Assembly: GCA_026992075.1 (NCBI GenBank)
Contig: JALXAM010000028.1
Coordinates: forward strand, 92,289-150,916
Direction: 5' to 3'
From: Sedimenticola sp.
GTDB taxonomy: Bacteria; Pseudomonadota; Gammaproteobacteria; Chromatiales; Chromatiaceae
Length of the DNA: 58,628 bases
This document shows, one piece after another, positions 4,708 through 57,562 of the stretch (the stretch's first letter is position 1; each line of letters starts with the position of its first letter). The notes beneath the pieces were generated by a model that was given only the letters and a program-made list of their open reading frames with translations, was not told the origin of the DNA and searched no databases. The position numbers and the translations under genes were made by a program.

Positions 4708-4843
4708 TCTGATCTAATCCCGGACGAAACAGATTGTACTCCTCTGGCTCGAGTACAAGGCGAAGTTCGCAGCCAATAGCGAGACTTCAACGCGGTAATC
4801 GGGCCGGAGGGGGACAAGATGCAAGTTCATGGATTAGATCAGA
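4708..4843 (-). repeat. MITE-like repeat C, copy 1
   Basis: This 136-bp element is bounded by a perfect inverted repeat: TCTGATCTAATCC at 4708-4720 and GGATTAGATCAGA at 4831-4843. Its reverse complement aligns along nearly its whole length with 47922-48064. The shared blocks include CTTGTCCCCCTCCGGCCCGA, GGCTGCGAA and TTCGCCTTGT. No transposase or convincing ORF lies inside. It sits between recF and dnaN. Confidence 0.8.
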
Positions 4844-4876
4844 AGATTCTTGGATCAGAAAAGGGTTCAGAAGCGG

Positions 4877-8655: not shown

Positions 8656-8763
8656 GGCCGGTAGGCAACCCTTGTTGTCGGGGACGCTGTGAATACATCC
8701 ATGTAAGCTTTGCGGCAGCATCCCTGCTGCCGAAACCCCGACAACAAGGGTTGCCCACCGGCC
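8656..8763 (+). repeat. R element 1 (three-way-junction repeat)
   Basis: First of ten copies of a family of about 106 bp. Arms of 27-28 nt (8656-8683 and 8736-8763) are nearly perfect complements, starting GGCCGGT. They enclose two small hairpins: TACATCCATGTA, and CGGCAGCA-TCCC-TGCTGCCG. Read on the minus strand the loops become ACAUGGAUGU and GCAGGGAUGC, both fitting CANGGANG. The core is in forward orientation here. It lies between the convergent ttcA and secretin-like genes. Confidence 0.9.
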
Positions 8764-8825: not shown

Positions 8826-8931
8826 GCCGACGGGGTGGTTCTCGTAGCGGGACCTCGGAGGCAGGGATGCCGACGCGGAGCCTACAGGGATGTATTCACG
8901 GCGTTCCCGCTACGAGAACCGGACCGGCGGC
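8826..8931 (-). repeat. R element 2
   Basis: This is a subfamily-2 core (CGTCGGCATCCCTGCC type) in reverse orientation. The arms 8826-8852 and 8905-8931 share TTCTCGTAGCGGGA. Together with R1 and a linker containing GCAGCGCTATCGGTTGT it forms a double unit. The same double unit recurs inverted at 19975-20250. The plus strand reads the loop pattern ACAGGGAUGU. The whole 8574-9008 gap holds only these elements and a degenerate GTCGGGCTTCAGCCCGAC-like motif near 8615. Confidence 0.88.
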
Positions 8932-9951: not shown

Positions 9952-10057
9952 GCCGCCGTCCCGGCATTTGTAGCGGGGACGCCGTGAATACATCCCTGTA
10001 GGCTCTGCGGCAGCATCCCTGCTGCCAAAGCCCCGCTATAAACACCGGAACGTCGGC
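9952..10057 (+). repeat. R element 3
   Basis: The arms 9952-9978 and 10031-10057 begin GCCGCCGTCCCGG and GCCGACGTTCCGG (right arm reverse-complemented), with several compensating or mismatched positions. The core is forward, with hairpins TACATCCCTGTA and CGGCAGCATCCCTGCTGCC. It lies in the 325-bp gap between the divergent secretin-like gene and the large dehydrogenase, so it could fall in either leader. Confidence 0.88.
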
Positions 10058-14022: not shown

Positions 14023-14044
14023 GTAGGTCGGGCTTCAGCCCGAC
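14023..14044 (+). repeat. GTCGGGCTTCAGCCCGAC repeat
   Basis: A palindromic repeat preceded by GTAG, 33 bp left of R element 4. An inverted partner lies at 14206-14227, so R4 is bracketed by an outer pair. Confidence 0.85.
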
Positions 14045-14076: not shown

Positions 14077-14182
14077 GCCGGTGGGGGAGTCTCTCTGGCA
14101 GGGCCGCCGTGTATACATCCCTGTAGGCTTTGCGGCAGCTTCCCTGCTGCCGAAACCCTGCCAGAGAGACTCCCCCACCGGC
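14077..14182 (+). repeat. R element 4
   Basis: The arms 14077-14103 and 14156-14182 are a perfect 27-bp inverted repeat beginning GCCGGTGGGGGAGTCTC. The core is forward. The second hairpin loop reads CTTCCCTG, which on the minus strand is CAGGGAAG. The element is bracketed by two GTCGGGC palindromes. It fills most of the 254 bp between the dehydrogenase and the DUF4926 gene. Confidence 0.92.
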
Positions 14183-19974: not shown

Positions 19975-20080
19975 GCCGCCGGTCCGGTTCTCGTAGCGGG
20001 AACGCCGTGAATACATCCCTGTAGGCTCCGCGTCGGCGTCCCTGCCTCCGAGGTCCCGCTACGAGAACCGCCCCGTCGGC
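19975..20080 (+). repeat. R element 5
   Basis: A subfamily-2 core, forward orientation. The arms 19975-20001 and 20054-20080 contain TTCTCGTAGCGGGA, the same arm sequence as R2. With R6 and the linker 20081-20144 it is an inverted copy of the R1/R2 double unit. Confidence 0.9.
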
Positions 20081-20144: not shown

Positions 20145-20250
20145 GCCGGTGGGGGATCCTTGTTGGCGGGGTTTCGGCAGCAGGGATGCTGCCGCAAAGC
20201 TTACACGGATGTATTTACAGCGTCCCCGCCAACAAGGATCCCCCACCGGC
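20145..20250 (-). repeat. R element 6
   Basis: Perfect 27-bp arms (20145-20171 and 20224-20250) beginning GCCGGTGGGGGATCCTTG. The core is reversed, so the plus strand reads ACACGGAUGU and GCAGGGAUGC in the two loops. The 386-bp gap between the HugZ-like gene and metH consists of R5, linker, R6 and a GTCGGGC palindrome. Confidence 0.92.
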
Positions 20251-20270: not shown

Positions 20271-20288
20271 GTCGGGCTGAAGCCCGAC

Positions 20289-29531: not shown

Positions 29532-29551
29532 GGGTCGGGCTTCAGCCCGAC
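29532..29551 (+). repeat. GTCGGGCTTCAGCCCGAC repeat
   Basis: Left outer palindrome of the R7 unit. The degenerate right partner is at 29699-29720. Confidence 0.85.
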
Positions 29552-29574: not shown

Positions 29575-29680
29575 GCCGGTGGGGGATCCTTCGTGGCGGG
29601 GTTTCGGCAGCAGGGATGCTGCCGCAAAGCCTACAGGGAAGTATTCACGGCGTCCCCGCCACGAAGGATCCCCCACCGGC
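29575..29680 (-). repeat. R element 7
   Basis: Perfect 27-bp arms (29575-29601 and 29654-29680) beginning GCCGGTGGGGGATCCTTC. They differ from R6 only in the TTCGTG versus TTGTTG segment, changed on both arms. The core is reversed, so the sense strand of holA/proA reads GCAGGGAUGC and ACAGGGAAGU. It fills much of the 272-bp holA-proA gap. Confidence 0.92.
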
Positions 29681-35171: not shown

Positions 35172-35275
35172 GCCCCTAGCCCCCTTCTCCAGCGGGACCG
35201 CTGTGAATACTTCCCTGTAGGCTTCGCGTCGGCATCCCTGCCTCCGAGATCCCGCTGGAGAAGGCGGCTAGGGGC
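35172..35275 (+). repeat. R element 8
   Basis: A subfamily-2 core, forward. The arms 35172-35197 and 35250-35275 carry a locus-specific sequence (GCCCCTAGCCCCCTTCTCC) unlike other copies, yet remain complementary with few mismatches. The minus strand, which is sense for the flanking PfkB and moeA genes, reads ACAGGGAAGU and GCAGGGAUGC. It lies in the 242-bp gap between them. Confidence 0.9.
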
Positions 35276-41265: not shown

Positions 41266-41300
41266 CAGGGGGCCTCCAGTTCGTCGATCTGGCCTGCCCG

Positions 41301-41378
41301 CCCCTCTGTCCCGGTACCTGAGAGTTTGGCCTGCCGGCCTGCCCCGTCGGTGGGCGCTTGAAACGCCGCTCTCCAGAG
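41301..41378 (-). promoter_or_regulatory. glycine riboswitch, second (3') aptamer
   Basis: On the minus strand: CTCTGGAGAG, then CCACCGACGGGGCA, then CCAAACTCTCAGGTACCGGG and ACAGAGGGG. These are the conserved blocks of the gcvT-type glycine aptamer (P1, the core GGAGAG, ACTCTCAGGT and the closing strand). It ends 35 nt before the gcvT start. Confidence 0.93.
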
Positions 41379-41424
41379 TCGAGCTGTTGCCTCTAATGTT
41401 TCGGTCGCTGGAAGGCAGAGACTG

Positions 41425-41521
41425 GCCGGTGTTTCCGGTGCAGGTGTCGGCAGCCATGGATGGCTGCCGCCAAGCCCCCCAGGGATGGGTTCACGGGCGT
41501 CCTGCACCGGGAATACCGGGC
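41425..41521 (-). repeat. R element 10, inserted between riboswitch aptamers
   Basis: A 97-bp divergent R element. The arms GCCGGTGTTTCCGGTGCAGG and GCCCGGTATTCCCGGTGCAG (right arm reverse-complemented) close two hairpins whose stems differ from other copies (CCCA/TGGG and GGCAGCCA/TGGCTGCC). The plus-strand loops read CAUGGAUG and CAGGGAUG, both CANGGANG. It lies in the linker between the two glycine aptamers. Confidence 0.88.
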
Positions 41522-41550
41522 AGGCTCAACCCCCTCTAATGGCAACTTCA

Positions 41551-41630
41551 CCCCGTGGTCCTTTTGCCTGAGCGATTCCGGGCGGAACTTGCGCCTTCGG
41601 CGCCGGAAGGATCCGGTCTCTCCCACGGGG
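41551..41630 (-). promoter_or_regulatory. glycine riboswitch, first (5') aptamer
   Basis: On the minus strand: CCCCGTGGGAGAGACCGGAT, then GGCGCCGAAGGCGCAAG, then GGAATCGCTCAGGCAAAAGG and ACCACGGGG. Closing strand, GGGAGAG, CGCCGAAGG and CTCAGGCAAAAGGACC are conserved type-1 aptamer blocks. It is separated from the second aptamer by 172 nt; most tandem riboswitches have a linker of only about 10-20 nt. Confidence 0.92.
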
Positions 41631-41717
41631 CATGGCTCGAGTGGGGGATGGTACCGGGAGATGGGGGAGAATGCCAACGGGTTGATCCCGGGACATCGGC
41701 TTGCAAGCGGATAGTTG

Positions 41718-46836: not shown

Positions 46837-46867
46837 GCCGATTCGGGGTAGCCTTTGAACCGAAGGC

Positions 46868-47052
46868 ATCCTCTGCGGTGTTCGTGCACCGGCTTCGTTA
46901 TCCCTTGAGCCTATGCTTTGTCGACAGGGGACCGAAACCACTGCGGAGGTGTGCAAGTCCGCCTCCGAGCGGAAAGCCTGATCCGCAGCCGCGGTTCCCA
47001 CTTGAACCTCACGGTTCAAGGTCACAAACCGGAAACGGCACAGGTGGAGGAT
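46868..47052 (+). ncRNA. ssrS: 6S RNA
   Basis: It lies between zapA and fau, the hallmark location. The 5' end ATCCTCTGCGGTG pairs with the 3' end ...CAGGTGGAGGAT. The conserved CCCTTGAGCC and the tail CACTTGAACCTCACGGTTCA are present. It is about 185 nt. 6S RNA binds sigma-70 RNA polymerase holoenzyme as a promoter mimic. The 3' end touches the fau start codon region. Confidence 0.92.
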
Positions 47053-47656
47053 GTCTTCCATTCCCTCCCCTTCCATGAACCCTTCCCGATCCGAGCTTCG
47101 CGCCAGGCGTCGCGCACTGGATCCTGCATTGCGTTCACGCTTTGCCATGCAGGCCGCCCGGCTGGCCAAGCGGCAGCCCTTCTTCTTGCGCGCCGAACGC
47201 ATCGCCTTCTATCTGGCCAGCGATGGCGAGCTGGATCCCCTGCCCCTATTGCGCAGCGCAGTGGCCATGGGCAAGCAGTGTCTGCTGCCGGTGCTGCACC
47301 CGCTGGGCCACCGGCGACTCTGGTTTGCACGCTGGAAGCCGGGTGAGCCGTTGCGTCCCAACCGCTACGGCATTCCAGAGCCGAGATGGGAACGCAGCGG
47401 TCTGCTCTCTCCCCGCGCCATCGATCTGGTATTGATGCCTCTGGTGGCGTTCGACCATCGCTGTCATCGCATGGGCATGGGCGCTGGTTACTATGACCGC
47501 ACCTTCGCCTGGCGCATGCGATCTCCAACTTGGCGTGGTCCCAGCCTCGTGGGCTATGCCTATGCGCTTCAGGGAGTGACTGCCATAGACACCCAACCCT
47601 GGGACGTTCCGCTGGATGCGGTGATCACCGAACGGGAGGTGTTGCGATGCAAATAA
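47051..47656 (+). CDS. fau: 5-formyltetrahydrofolate cyclo-ligase
   Basis: A 201-residue enzyme converting 5-formyl-THF to 5,10-methenyl-THF. The ATP-site signature LMPLVAFDHRCHRMGMGAGY is present. The ATG at 47051 sits directly after GGTGGAGG in the 3' end of 6S RNA; a Met at 47075 is an alternative without a visible Shine-Dalgarno. The adjacency to the glycine-cleavage folate genes in the window is loose. Confidence 0.92.
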   Translation: MSSIPSPSMNPSRSELRARRRALDPALRSRFAMQAARLAKRQPFFLRAERIAFYLASDGELDPLPLLRSAVAMGKQCLLPVLHPLGHRRLWFARWKPGEPLRPNRYGIPEPRWERSGLLSPRAIDLVLMPLVAFDHRCHRMGMGAGYYDRTFAWRMRSPTWRGPSLVGYAYALQGVTAIDTQPWDVPLDAVITEREVLRCK

Positions 47657-47757: not shown

Positions 47758-47902
47758 GGAAGGCCTGAAGAATTCGGGCCTTCCTTCGGCACAAGGATGT
47801 GCCGGAAAAATCGATCGCTGTAAGCGATCGATTTTGTAGCAAGCCGCAAACCGCGTTTGCGGCGCAGCGCGCCCTGATAAAGCCAAGGATGGCTTTTATC
47901 AG
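47758..47902 (+). other. tandem hairpin array with GGA loops (candidate regulatory RNA)
   Basis: Five hairpins in a row: GGAAGGCC/GGCCTTCC (47758-47784), CGGCACA-AGGA-TGTGCCG (47787-47804), AATCGATCGCT-GTA-AGCGATCGATT (47809-47833), CCGCAAA/TTTGCGG (47844-47862) and CTGATAAAGCC-AAGGAT-GGCTTTTATCAG (47874-47902). Two loops fit CANGGANG. No promoter or poly-T terminator is obvious. It lies within the 518-bp fau to H1-like gap, after a half family F repeat (47730-47757). Confidence 0.45.
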
Positions 47903-47921
47903 GGGTTCCCTACAGGAGCTT

Positions 47922-48064
47922 CTGATTTAATCCATGAACCCGCATCTTGTCCCCCTCCGGCCCGATTACTGCGTCGATGTTCTTGCCAATAGCTTGTGGC
48001 TGCGAATTTCGCCTTGTGCTCGAACCGGAGGAGAACAACCTGCTCCGTCCAGGATTGAATCAGG
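47922..48064 (+). repeat. MITE-like repeat C, copy 2
   Basis: 143 bp bounded by TCTGATTTAATCC (47922-47934) and GGATTGAATCAGG (48052-48064), imperfect inverted termini. It matches the reverse complement of 4708-4843 over most of its length, with a few small insertions. It lies 110 bp upstream of the histone-like gene. Confidence 0.78.
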
Positions 48065-48174
48065 GGTTACTACAGCTGAAATTCCCTTTCGATCACTGGT
48101 ATTTCACTTCCAGTTGTATATACTCCGGTGAAAGCCTTTACATTTGTTGATCAACAACGACAAGGGGAGATGTA

Positions 48175-48483
48175 ATGGTAAAGAAGACCACCACCAAATC
48201 GGCGGCAAAGGTGACCAAGAAGGCGGCGAAGAAGAAAGTGGCCAAGAAGAAGGTCGCCAAAAAGGTCGCAAAGAAGGTGACGAAGAAGAAGGTGGCAAAA
48301 AAGAAGGTCGCCAAGAAGAAGGTTGCCAAGAAAGCGGCCGTCAAAAAGAAAGTCACCAAGAAGGCCGCGAAGAAGAAGGTGGTGAGAAAGGCGGCGAAAA
48401 AGAAAACCGCCAAGAAGAAGGCAGCGAAGAAAAAGGTCGCCAAGAAAAAGACGGCCAAGAAAAAGGCCGTGAAAAAGAAGTAG
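48175..48483 (+). CDS. lysine-rich histone H1-like protein
   Basis: A 102-residue protein made almost entirely of K, A and V in AAKKKVAKKKVAKK-type repeats, like the C-terminal tails of histone H1, Bordetella BpH1 or Pseudomonas AlgP. It should bind and compact DNA through charge. The ATG is preceded by AAGGGGAGATGTA. The repetitive gene may vary in length by recombination. It ends at the edge of a GTCGGGC palindrome. Confidence 0.85.
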   Translation: MVKKTTTKSAAKVTKKAAKKKVAKKKVAKKVAKKVTKKKVAKKKVAKKKVAKKAAVKKKVTKKAAKKKVVRKAAKKKTAKKKAAKKKVAKKKTAKKKAVKKK

Positions 48484-48500
48484 GTCGGGCTTCAGCCCGA
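48480..48500 (+). repeat. GTCGGGCTTCAGCCCGA repeat at the H1-like stop
   Basis: A palindromic repeat that begins within the stop region of the histone-like gene and lies between it and the convergent ilvA. Confidence 0.75.
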
Positions 48501-48510
48501 GAAGGCCCTG

Positions 48511-50031
48511 TCATCCCGCCCCGGCGAAAAGCCGGTAGGCGGGGTTGTCCGTCTCCTCCTGATAGGGGTAGTCCAGCTCCTCGAGGTAGGCGCGAAACGC
48601 CTTCAGCTCCCCTGGACCGAGCTGGATCCCCACCAGCACCCGACCATGGGCCGAGCCGTGGTTGCGATAATGGAACAGGCTGATGTTCCAACCCCGGCTC
48701 AATCCGGAAAGAAAGTCCAGCAAGGCACCTGGCCGTTCCGGAAAGACGAAGCGGAACAGGTGTTCGTTCTTCACCTGGGGCGCGTGTCCGCCCACCATGT
48801 ATCGGATGTGGAGTTTGGCCGTCTCGTTGTCGGTCATGTCCACCACCGGAAAGCCTTTCTTCTCCAGCTTCTCCTTCAGCTGCTCCTTCTCCTCCAGGCC
48901 ACCGGAGAGCTCCACGCCGCAGAAGACATGGGCCCGCTCGGGGTCGGCATAGCGGTAGTTGAACTCGGTGATGTTGCGCTTGCCCAGCAGCCTGCAGAAG
49001 GCGAGGAAGCTGCCGGGCCGTTCCGGGATCTCCACCGCGAAGAGTGCCTCGCGCTGCTCGCCCAGCTCGGCCCGTTCGGCCACGTGGCGCAGGCGGTCGA
49101 AATTGATGTTGGCGCCGCTCACCACCGCCACCAGCTTCTGCCCTGACAGATCCCGCTCCTGGGCGTGCTTCTTGATCCCCGCCACCGCCAGGGCGCCCGC
49201 CGGCTCGGCGATACTGCGGGTCTCGTCGTAGATGTCCTTGATGGCGGCGCAGATCTCGTCGGTGGAAACCAGTACCGTTTCGTCCACGTGGCGGCGCGCC
49301 AGCTTGAAGGTCTCGCGGCCGATCTGCCGCACCGCCACGCCGTCGGCGAACAGCCCCACCTGCTTCAGCGTCACCCGTCGGCCTGCGGCCAGCGCGCGGT
49401 GCAGGGTGGGGGTGTCGTCCGGCTCCACCCCGATCACCTTGATCTCGGGTCGCACCCGCTTGATGTAGACCGCCATGCCGGCGATGAGCCCGCCGCCGCC
49501 CACCGGCACATAGACCGCATCCAGCGGGTCCTCGTGCTGGCGCAGCACCTCCATGGCGATGGTGCCCTGGCCGGCGATGACGCAGGGGTCGTCGAAGGGA
49601 TGAACGAAGGTCAACCCCTTCTCCTTCGCCAGCTCCAGGGCATGCTCGTAGGCATCGTCGTAGGAATCGCCGTGCAGCACGGTGCGGGCGCCCAGATTGC
49701 GCACCGTCTGCACCTTGATCGGCGGTGTGGTGACGGGCATGACGATGAGCGCGTGCACGCCCAGCCGCCGGCCTGCCAGGGCCACCCCCTGGGCGTGGTT
49801 GCCGGCCGAGGCGGCGATCACCCCCCTCGCCTTCTCCTCCTCGGACAGGTTGTAGATCTTGTTGTAGGCGCCGCGCAGCTTGAAGGAGAAGACGCTCTGC
49901 AGATCCTCCCGCTTCAGGAACACCTCCGCCTTGAGCCGTTCCGACAGCCGCCCCGCCCGCTCCAGCGGCGTCTCCCGCGCCACATCGTAGACCCGCGCGC
50001 GCAGGATGCGTTCCAGGTAATCGTTGGCCAT
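48511..50031 (-). CDS. ilvA: threonine ammonia-lyase, biosynthetic
   Basis: 506 residues from MANDYLERILRARVYDVAR (50031). The PLP lysine is in SVFSFKLRGAYNKI and the glycine loop in VGGGGLIAGMAVY. Two C-terminal ACT-like domains (about residues 325-410 and 420-500) give isoleucine feedback control, as in E. coli IlvA. The start is only 5 bp past the hicB stop, so no room remains for a private promoter; it may be read from hicAB or from inside hicB. Confidence 0.95.
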   Translation of the reverse strand: MANDYLERILRARVYDVARETPLERAGRLSERLKAEVFLKREDLQSVFSFKLRGAYNKIYNLSEEEKARGVIAASAGNHAQGVALAGRRLGVHALIVMPVTTPPIKVQTVRNLGARTVLHGDSYDDAYEHALELAKEKGLTFVHPFDDPCVIAGQGTIAMEVLRQHEDPLDAVYVPVGGGGLIAGMAVYIKRVRPEIKVIGVEPDDTPTLHRALAAGRRVTLKQVGLFADGVAVRQIGRETFKLARRHVDETVLVSTDEICAAIKDIYDETRSIAEPAGALAVAGIKKHAQERDLSGQKLVAVVSGANINFDRLRHVAERAELGEQREALFAVEIPERPGSFLAFCRLLGKRNITEFNYRYADPERAHVFCGVELSGGLEEKEQLKEKLEKKGFPVVDMTDNETAKLHIRYMVGGHAPQVKNEHLFRFVFPERPGALLDFLSGLSRGWNISLFHYRNHGSAHGRVLVGIQLGPGELKAFRAYLEELDYPYQEETDNPAYRLFAGAG

Positions 50032-57280: not shown

Positions 57281-57382
57281 GGGGGCGGGCACCTGCCCGG
57301 AAAATCCCGCGAATACATCCATACAGGATAGGCTTTGCGTCGGCATCCCTGCCTCCGAAGTTTTCCGATCGGGCACCCGTCC
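57281..57382 (+). repeat. R element 9 (degenerate)
   Basis: A subfamily-2 core with a small insertion (CATCCATACAGGATAGGCT). The arms around GGGCGGGCACCTGCCCGG and its partner are imperfect. One loop keeps CAGGGAUG on the minus strand, the other has decayed to UAUGGAUG. It lies upstream of rplM. A half family F repeat follows at 57470-57500. Confidence 0.7.
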
Positions 57383-57562
57383 TTGCTTTTCGAGGGCTTA
57401 CGGCCTCGGGTCACTTGATTCCGCCATCTCTCCTCAAGGCCCGGGCTGTCGTTTTTCGCAGGTGTATGCAGGGCGGGCAAAGCGCAGCGTGCCCGCCACG
57501 GATCGATGGGTGCAGTGAGCCGGTATTTGCCCATCCGGCTCGTTAGGGCATGATTTTCAGGC

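Follow-up and report, generated by a model that had tools for sequence, protein, structure and literature searches.

Ten copies of an intergenic repeat, here termed R, lie in the window (the whole 58,628-nt stretch of Sedimenticola sp. JALXAM010000028.1 that was analyzed, in whose numbering positions are given), and the reading we favor, at about an even chance, is that R belongs to the YPAL/RU-2 (Ysr224) kind of non-autonomous mobile repeat and that its GGA-strand RNA would bind CsrA through its pairs of loops. A broader proposition is held more tentatively, somewhat short of an even chance: that class-wide mobile repeats, at least 150 copies strong in some genomes, spread near-optimal pairs of CsrA sites and form a distributed transposable sink, in which one insertion would give CsrA control and other modules with unrelated stems share the loop, some of them nesting in R loops. 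The first-pass annotation of this DNA had proposed that the repeats may be binding sites or sponges for an Rsm/Csr protein. This interpretation is supported in part, as the motif is real and held more tightly than the stems and csrA is present in the genome; however, R belongs to an already known mobile kind and shows no strand preference.

R copies in the window

All ten copies placed by the first-pass annotation were recovered by pattern search of the window (Table 1), and its account of the loops mostly holds, apart from small errors in copy assignment and in the list of variants. The list omits AGGGAC, found in the first hairpin of the copy at 19975, and the very different stems attributed to the copy at 57281 actually belong to that at 41425, with loops CAUGGAUG and CAGGGAUG; the loops of the 57281 copy are UAUGGAUG and CAGGGAUG. 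For nine of the ten copies, none of 200 shuffles folds as well (z −2.7 to −11.1), and the copy at 57281 folds no better than its shuffles (z −0.25; 76 of 200 as good). By itself, CANGGANG is barely enriched in the window (63 found against 48.5 expected, a count reached by 2 of 100 shuffles); TACARGGATGT is found four times against 0.01 expected (0 of 100 shuffles), each time within an R copy.

Glycine riboswitch aptamers at 41546-41635 and 41296-41386 (minus strand) bracket R copy 9 upstream of a glycine cleavage T-protein gene, and this copy may split a tandem glycine riboswitch (41296-41635). Elsewhere in the window are a 6S RNA gene (46867-47054) and an ORF rich in lysine/alanine repeats (48144-48683), which is histone-like by eye and without a Pfam match.

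Table 1. R copies and the S element in the window; the strand given for R is the one that carries GGA.
Feature	Position	Strand	Description
R copy 1	8656..8763	-	outer stem and two hairpins, loops AGGGAU, AUGGAU
R copy 2	8827..8930	+	loops AGGGAU, AGGGAU
R copy 3	9952..10057	-	loops AGGGAU, AGGGAU; found by wider patterns, first hairpin missed by the narrower regex
R copy 4	14079..14180	-	loops AGGGAA, AGGGAU; REPs at 14028 and 14207
R copy 5	19975..20080	-	loops AGGGAC, AGGGAU
R copy 6	20145..20250	+	loops AGGGAU, ACGGAU; REP at 20272
R copy 7	29575..29680	+	loops AGGGAU, AGGGAA; between holA and proA-like genes; REP at 29535; R absent here in near relative G011
R copy 8	35172..35275	-	loops AGGGAU, AGGGAA
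R copy 9	41425..41520 (ends approximate)	+	divergent stems; loops AUGGAU, AGGGAU
R copy 10	57281..57385	-	degraded; loops AGGGAU, AUGGAU (UAUGGAUG)
S element	47768..47910	+	two hairpins with AAGGAU hexaloops, at about 47793 and 47885; its stems are not related to those of R

Architecture and constraint in the Sedimenticola genome

Read on the GGA strand, R is built of an outer stem, which has at least 25 pairs in several window copies, hairpin A, whose loop is for example AGGGAU, and then hairpin B, GCC-UAC-[ANGGAN]-GUA-UUCAC-GGC, in which three pairs stand under the hexaloop. The whole genome (2.73 Mb, 76 contigs) holds 75 copies by the pattern CCTACANGGANGTATTCACGG with up to three mismatches, where the reversed control gave none; covariance model R1 finds 88 copies at E ≤0.001 among 119 candidates scored.

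It had been claimed that the A and the GGA of the loops are constant and the positions beside them vary, and this is borne out. In loop B the 75 copies have A (74), N1 (G63 T7 A4 C1), G (75), G (75), A (75) and N2 (T50 A9 G9 C7), so that GGA is present in 75/75 and both N positions take all four bases; the pattern used favors an intact loop B, although it tolerates three mismatches. Loop A was followed in alignment A2, built from the 75 pattern copies by leaving out ten with an inserted module and the divergent L063 (minus strand) and adding the one at 41425 in the window, which gives 65 rows. Here A is present in 65/65 and the GGA columns in 65, 64 and 65 of 65, with seven loops one base shorter.

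Constraint on the loops exceeds that on the stems, which vary yet stay complementary, as the annotation's question about loops and stems had anticipated. In A2, the outer stem averages 1.15 bits of entropy per column, and the columns of A and of GGA lie between 0 and 0.11; 93.9% of cells are paired in the given structure compared to 35-55% when it is shifted by 1-3 columns; and 372 double-change cells are seen against 101.5 in shuffles, with double changes in all 15 outer-stem pairs. The two GGAs are 20 nt apart in 63/65 copies. Among the 75 pattern copies, the SELEX core TACARGGATGT occurs in 42 and TACANGGANGT in 69. The UUCAC bulge of hairpin B (GTGAA on the other strand) has an entropy of 0.11-0.56 in A2 and 0.09-0.56 in alignment A3 of other organisms; across genera the bulge is nearly as well conserved as the loops, and CsrA gives no explanation for this bulge.

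R in other genomes

The first-pass annotation had asked whether the GGA loops hold in further copies, and the loop pattern is kept in other genera. Model R1 was run on 66 of 80 named loci, the 14 left out coming in many cases from organisms already represented, and the 83 matches form A3, which is aligned to that model and so biased toward it. The structure covaries here as well (690 double-change cells against 215.0 shuffled). Most rows were collected with a pattern that already sets loop B, which is no independent evidence in them; loop A was left free by that pattern and has GGA in 78/83 and the full ANGGA in 67/83, its first base being A in 72/81 and C in 7/81 and its closing pair C-G in 80/81. 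A separate hairpin count in other genera gave GGA in 79/84, with two of the five misses showing GGGA by eye, and the two GGAs are 19-21 nt apart in 80/83 copies.

Among the matches listed for the R pattern in named genomes are Xanthomonas, Stenotrophomonas, Methylomicrobium, Alcanivorax, Saccharospirillum, Thioalkalivibrio, Haliea, Rheinheimera, Zobellella and others, and model R2 counted at least 150, 139, 114, at least 150, at least 150 and 86 matches in six such genomes, Methylotuvimicrobium buryatense 5G being one of those with at least 150. In a sample of the class (Gammaproteobacteria), R is present in at least 78/370 genomes at E ≤1e-4, with the best 12 candidates per genome scored under strict filters. 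A draw across the phylum, for which the share of genomes from outside the class is not given, found R in 27/299, all 27 of the same class. Within 38 near and distant relatives R occurs in 18, patchily even within the genus: 88 copies in the Sedimenticola genome studied, 71 in G012, 34 in G011, and no match to the covariance model in congeners G006, G009 and G010. A phage or plasmid origin was dismissed, as the pattern has no match in viral contigs and one S. maltophilia copy has none in plasmids and phages.

Two arrangements were seen elsewhere in the class. One genome has six copies in tandem in a single orientation with a period of 226-229 nt (L271; G548:C1:93800-96600), and S. maltophilia D457 (G040) has thirteen close pairs among 62 listed hits, always minus then plus and 211-366 nt apart.

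Mobility and flanking REPs

R is mobile, as is seen from an empty and filled orthologous site between holA and proA. The Sedimenticola genome has R here, and G011, 92% identical at this site, has none within 500 nt upstream of proA; of 11 loci compared, nine are without R and G007 holds a different R in the opposite orientation. Comparison of orthologous sites in sister genomes gave a flank match for 25/67 copies, and the pairs compared are the 18 with a summed flank score of at least 1000, their flanks being 80-97% identical. These sites hold the same R, an R with another stem (L207/L042, L197/L039) or an R in the opposite orientation (L199/L030, L208/L054, L237/L042); the differing occupants look like cassette exchange or repeated insertion at one place. 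In the same-orientation pair L198/L022, the outer stem shows a compensatory change from A-T to G-C.

REPs (core TCGGGCTTCAGCCCGA and its inverse, up to three mismatches) flank the copies of the Sedimenticola genome on both sides in 27/75 cases and on one side in 15/75, with no REP within the stretch searched for 33/75; inverted REPs on both sides are mostly at fixed distances. The same genome has two Y1-transposase matches, one of them to a RAYT-like gene (L190, 1450-1902) with exact REP cores on either side; the REPs there come in pairs (1355-1980) and have a core identical to that of the REPs beside R copies. The alternative offered by the first-pass annotation, a structure-moved REP-like element, may also hold in part, with 27 copies between inverted REPs matching those that flank RAYT and 33 for which the stretch searched has no REP.

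Orientation relative to genes and replication

No strand preference of R relative to genes was found. With co-directional neighbors, copies were sense in 24 and antisense in 21 cases in the Sedimenticola genome, 29 and 20 in other taxa, and 15 and 21 in sister genomes, or 68 against 62 over the three sets (p 0.66), the counts being of copies with usable neighbors (73/75, 75/99 and 60/67, respectively). The neighbors come from a home-made gene finder, which Pfam supports for 9/10 flanking proteins in the window, and only 1/73 copies falls inside a predicted gene. Replication-strand bias is likewise absent in two complete genomes (34/62 and 24/49, taken from the best 62 of 114 and the best 49 of at least 150 matches). 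Selection on each copy through the neighboring mRNA is therefore unsupported, and an RNA role, if any, would lie at the level of the family; copies antisense to both neighboring genes also keep GGA, as do all 75.

Other elements carrying the loop

ANGGA hexaloops are also found on stems unrelated to R, and were counted for the CsrA reading. The S element is a second dispersed repeat, with further copies at L285 near 8790 (minus strand) and L287 near 13029 (minus strand), and has other hairpins between its two loops; these are about 92 nt apart, beyond the CsrA bridging range of 10-63 nt quoted in the excerpted text of PMC7652899. Structured modules of about 100 nt, which add further ANGGA hairpins, are nested in the hairpin A loop of 10/75 R copies (L002, L012, L013, L017, L030, L040, L042, L044, L050 and L062) and in the hairpin B loop at L280, L287 and L289, and resemble insertions into the GGA loops.

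A 400-kb sample of the genome contained 172 intergenic hexaloop hairpins with at least six pairs, among which A.GGA. was the third commonest class (13); the two commoner classes (20 and 18) both come from the REP loop, one from each strand. After R was masked, 11 A.GGA. hairpins were left: one R hairpin, four in modules nested in R, four in two S copies and two standing alone. Adjoining the S element of the window is one arm (47914-47980) of a 67-nt inverted repeat pair that is 88% complementary, the other arm being at 4784-4850.

CsrA as a predicted ligand

In excerpts of PMC7652899, the preferences of CsrA are given as RUACARGGAUGU, mostly in 6-nt loops and mostly with no more than four contiguous pairs, with ACA and GGA in all SELEX ligands; the dimer is described as bridging 10-63 nt, with an optimum above 18. 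Copies of R from the Sedimenticola genome and from other genera agree with the sequence preference in that GGA lies within a hexaloop, and the 20-nt spacing and the three-pair stem of hairpin B were counted in favor of CsrA on the same partial account. The genome has one CsrA match, of ordinary sequence, its gene lying behind one that by eye encodes aspartate kinase, which settles the question whether csrA is present. Across the class, csrA was found in 324/370 genomes, in 77/78 of those with R and 247/292 of the others (Fisher's p 0.00018), an association confounded by ancestry and by reduced genomes; the R-bearing G204 has no good match, reaching 15.9 bits even at a relaxed threshold.

Several findings count against CsrA. 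The full ANGGA is missing from loop A in 16/83 copies of other genera, with C as first base in the seven noted above, although ACA and GGA were shared by all SELEX ligands; the stem of hairpin A frequently exceeds four contiguous pairs; Rfam models Ysr224 on the strand opposite to GGA; and the missing strand preference, the conserved bulge and the wide loop spacing of S weigh on the same side. On balance, it is plausible that RNA from the GGA strand of R is a CsrA ligand, as predicted from the loops. In a transcript that crosses R on this strand, a long stem would carry two A-N-G-G-A-N loops with 20 nt between them, and one CsrA/RsmA dimer could bridge these loops; collectively the copies may form a dispersed sink for CsrA, and any one of them might tie CsrA to the UTR that hosts it. 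Conservation of ANGGA would then be due to this RNA function in the family of elements as a whole, not in each copy.

If CsrA binds R, a function at the molecular level can be given to a large class of bacterial intergenic repeats, many Gammaproteobacteria have more CsrA sites than was estimated, and transposition is a route by which CsrA control spreads. The literature searched on YPAL, REP or Ysr224 does not name CsrA and nothing was found that treats YPAL and CsrA together; within that literature, the CsrA reading thus appears new. None of the papers listed for CsrA together with repeats, REPs or sponges deals with such a repeat, the string GTGAATACATCC occurs in one unrelated paper, and Box C combined with BIME and ERIC had no match.

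Alternative readings

The chief rival, which we consider unlikely though well ahead of the others, is that the loops serve as single-stranded DNA: in the course of transposition or template switching, the fold with both its loops and its UUCAC/GTGAA bulge would be recognized by a transposase or another nuclease, and the likeness to CsrA sites would be coincidental. Such a reading accommodates the lack of strand bias relative to genes or replication, the REP-bounded copies together with a RAYT gene with identical REPs, the orthologous sites at which R is absent, different or inverted, and a bulge conserved along with the loops. Against it stand the free N between the fixed A and GGA in two hairpins, which is the pattern of CsrA, the sharing of the loop by S and the nested modules despite their other stems, and the copies that have no REP nearby.

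Improbable in our view is a role in RNA solely as a stable hairpin that protects or processes host transcripts, as proposed for YPAL, with no part for CsrA. The very stable folds of nine window copies are consistent with this, as is the suggestion in the available portion of PMC2229807 that YPAL might affect how stable the transcripts upstream of it are; stability accounts for the stems but not for the invariant GGA loops. Slightly less probable still is that the complementary strand is the working RNA, as in Rfam Ysr224, and the GGA strand a bystander. RF02770 does match R on the complementary strand, and partial texts describe Ysr224 as temperature-responsive (PMC9029176) with several copies transcribed in Yersinia ruckeri (PMC12112432), but R is inserted equally in both orientations.

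Comparison with known elements

R resembles the REP/REPIN system (RAYT, TnpA-REP) in the inverted REPs that surround about a third of its copies and share their core with those flanking RAYT; the R core itself is not a REP, and 33/75 copies have no REP in the stretch searched. The CsrB, RsmX, RsmY and RsmZ sRNAs, antagonists of CsrA, have hairpin loops with ANGGA as R does. They differ from R, which is dispersed as a repeat, carries two sites in each copy and has no known promoter; R as a CsrB/Rsm sRNA was rejected because it is a dispersed repeat and because no such family was matched in Rfam scans of the window at gathering score or of thirteen R-bearing loci at relaxed E-values. TwoAYGGAY, another Rfam family considered, was listed in no Rfam scan, and most of the other sub-threshold matches were to eukaryotic microRNA models fitting the long stem and were dismissed.

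When set against the R core, the consensus of Ysr224 (RF02770) aligns to its complementary strand, and this family has matches in 4/4 genomes tested; in S. maltophilia D457 they overlap R copies on the opposite strand when the hits are compared by eye. The scores are below the Rfam gathering cut-off of 70 bits, the best being 43.1 (S. maltophilia D457), with 34.9 in the Sedimenticola genome, and E. coli has no match to the 53-nt consensus. Unlike R as read here, the strand modeled in Rfam is the one without GGA.

Closest to R is YPAL/RU-2, a 168-bp palindromic mobile sequence of Yersinia, for which duplications of 3-26 bp and empty and filled sites are described in the part of PMC2229807 available. 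RU-2 as printed in Table 1b of PMC2759123 holds the R core, GCGCC-AAGGAT-GGCGC and GCC-TAC-ATGGAT-GTA-TTTAC-GGC, inside an outer stem, and by folding and by-eye comparison it folds like R, with two GGA-loop hairpins on that stem. Like R, YPAL lies between genes in many copies, and for either of them sites are found empty as well as filled. R differs in a distribution far wider than the Yersinia and Erwinia given for YPAL, in its very variable outer stems, and in being often bounded by REPs in Sedimenticola. Judged by sequence and fold, R is a widespread relative of YPAL, a mobile kind already known; if CsrA binds R, YPAL repeats, the Ysr224 sRNA and CsrA, so far treated as separate subjects, would meet in one element.
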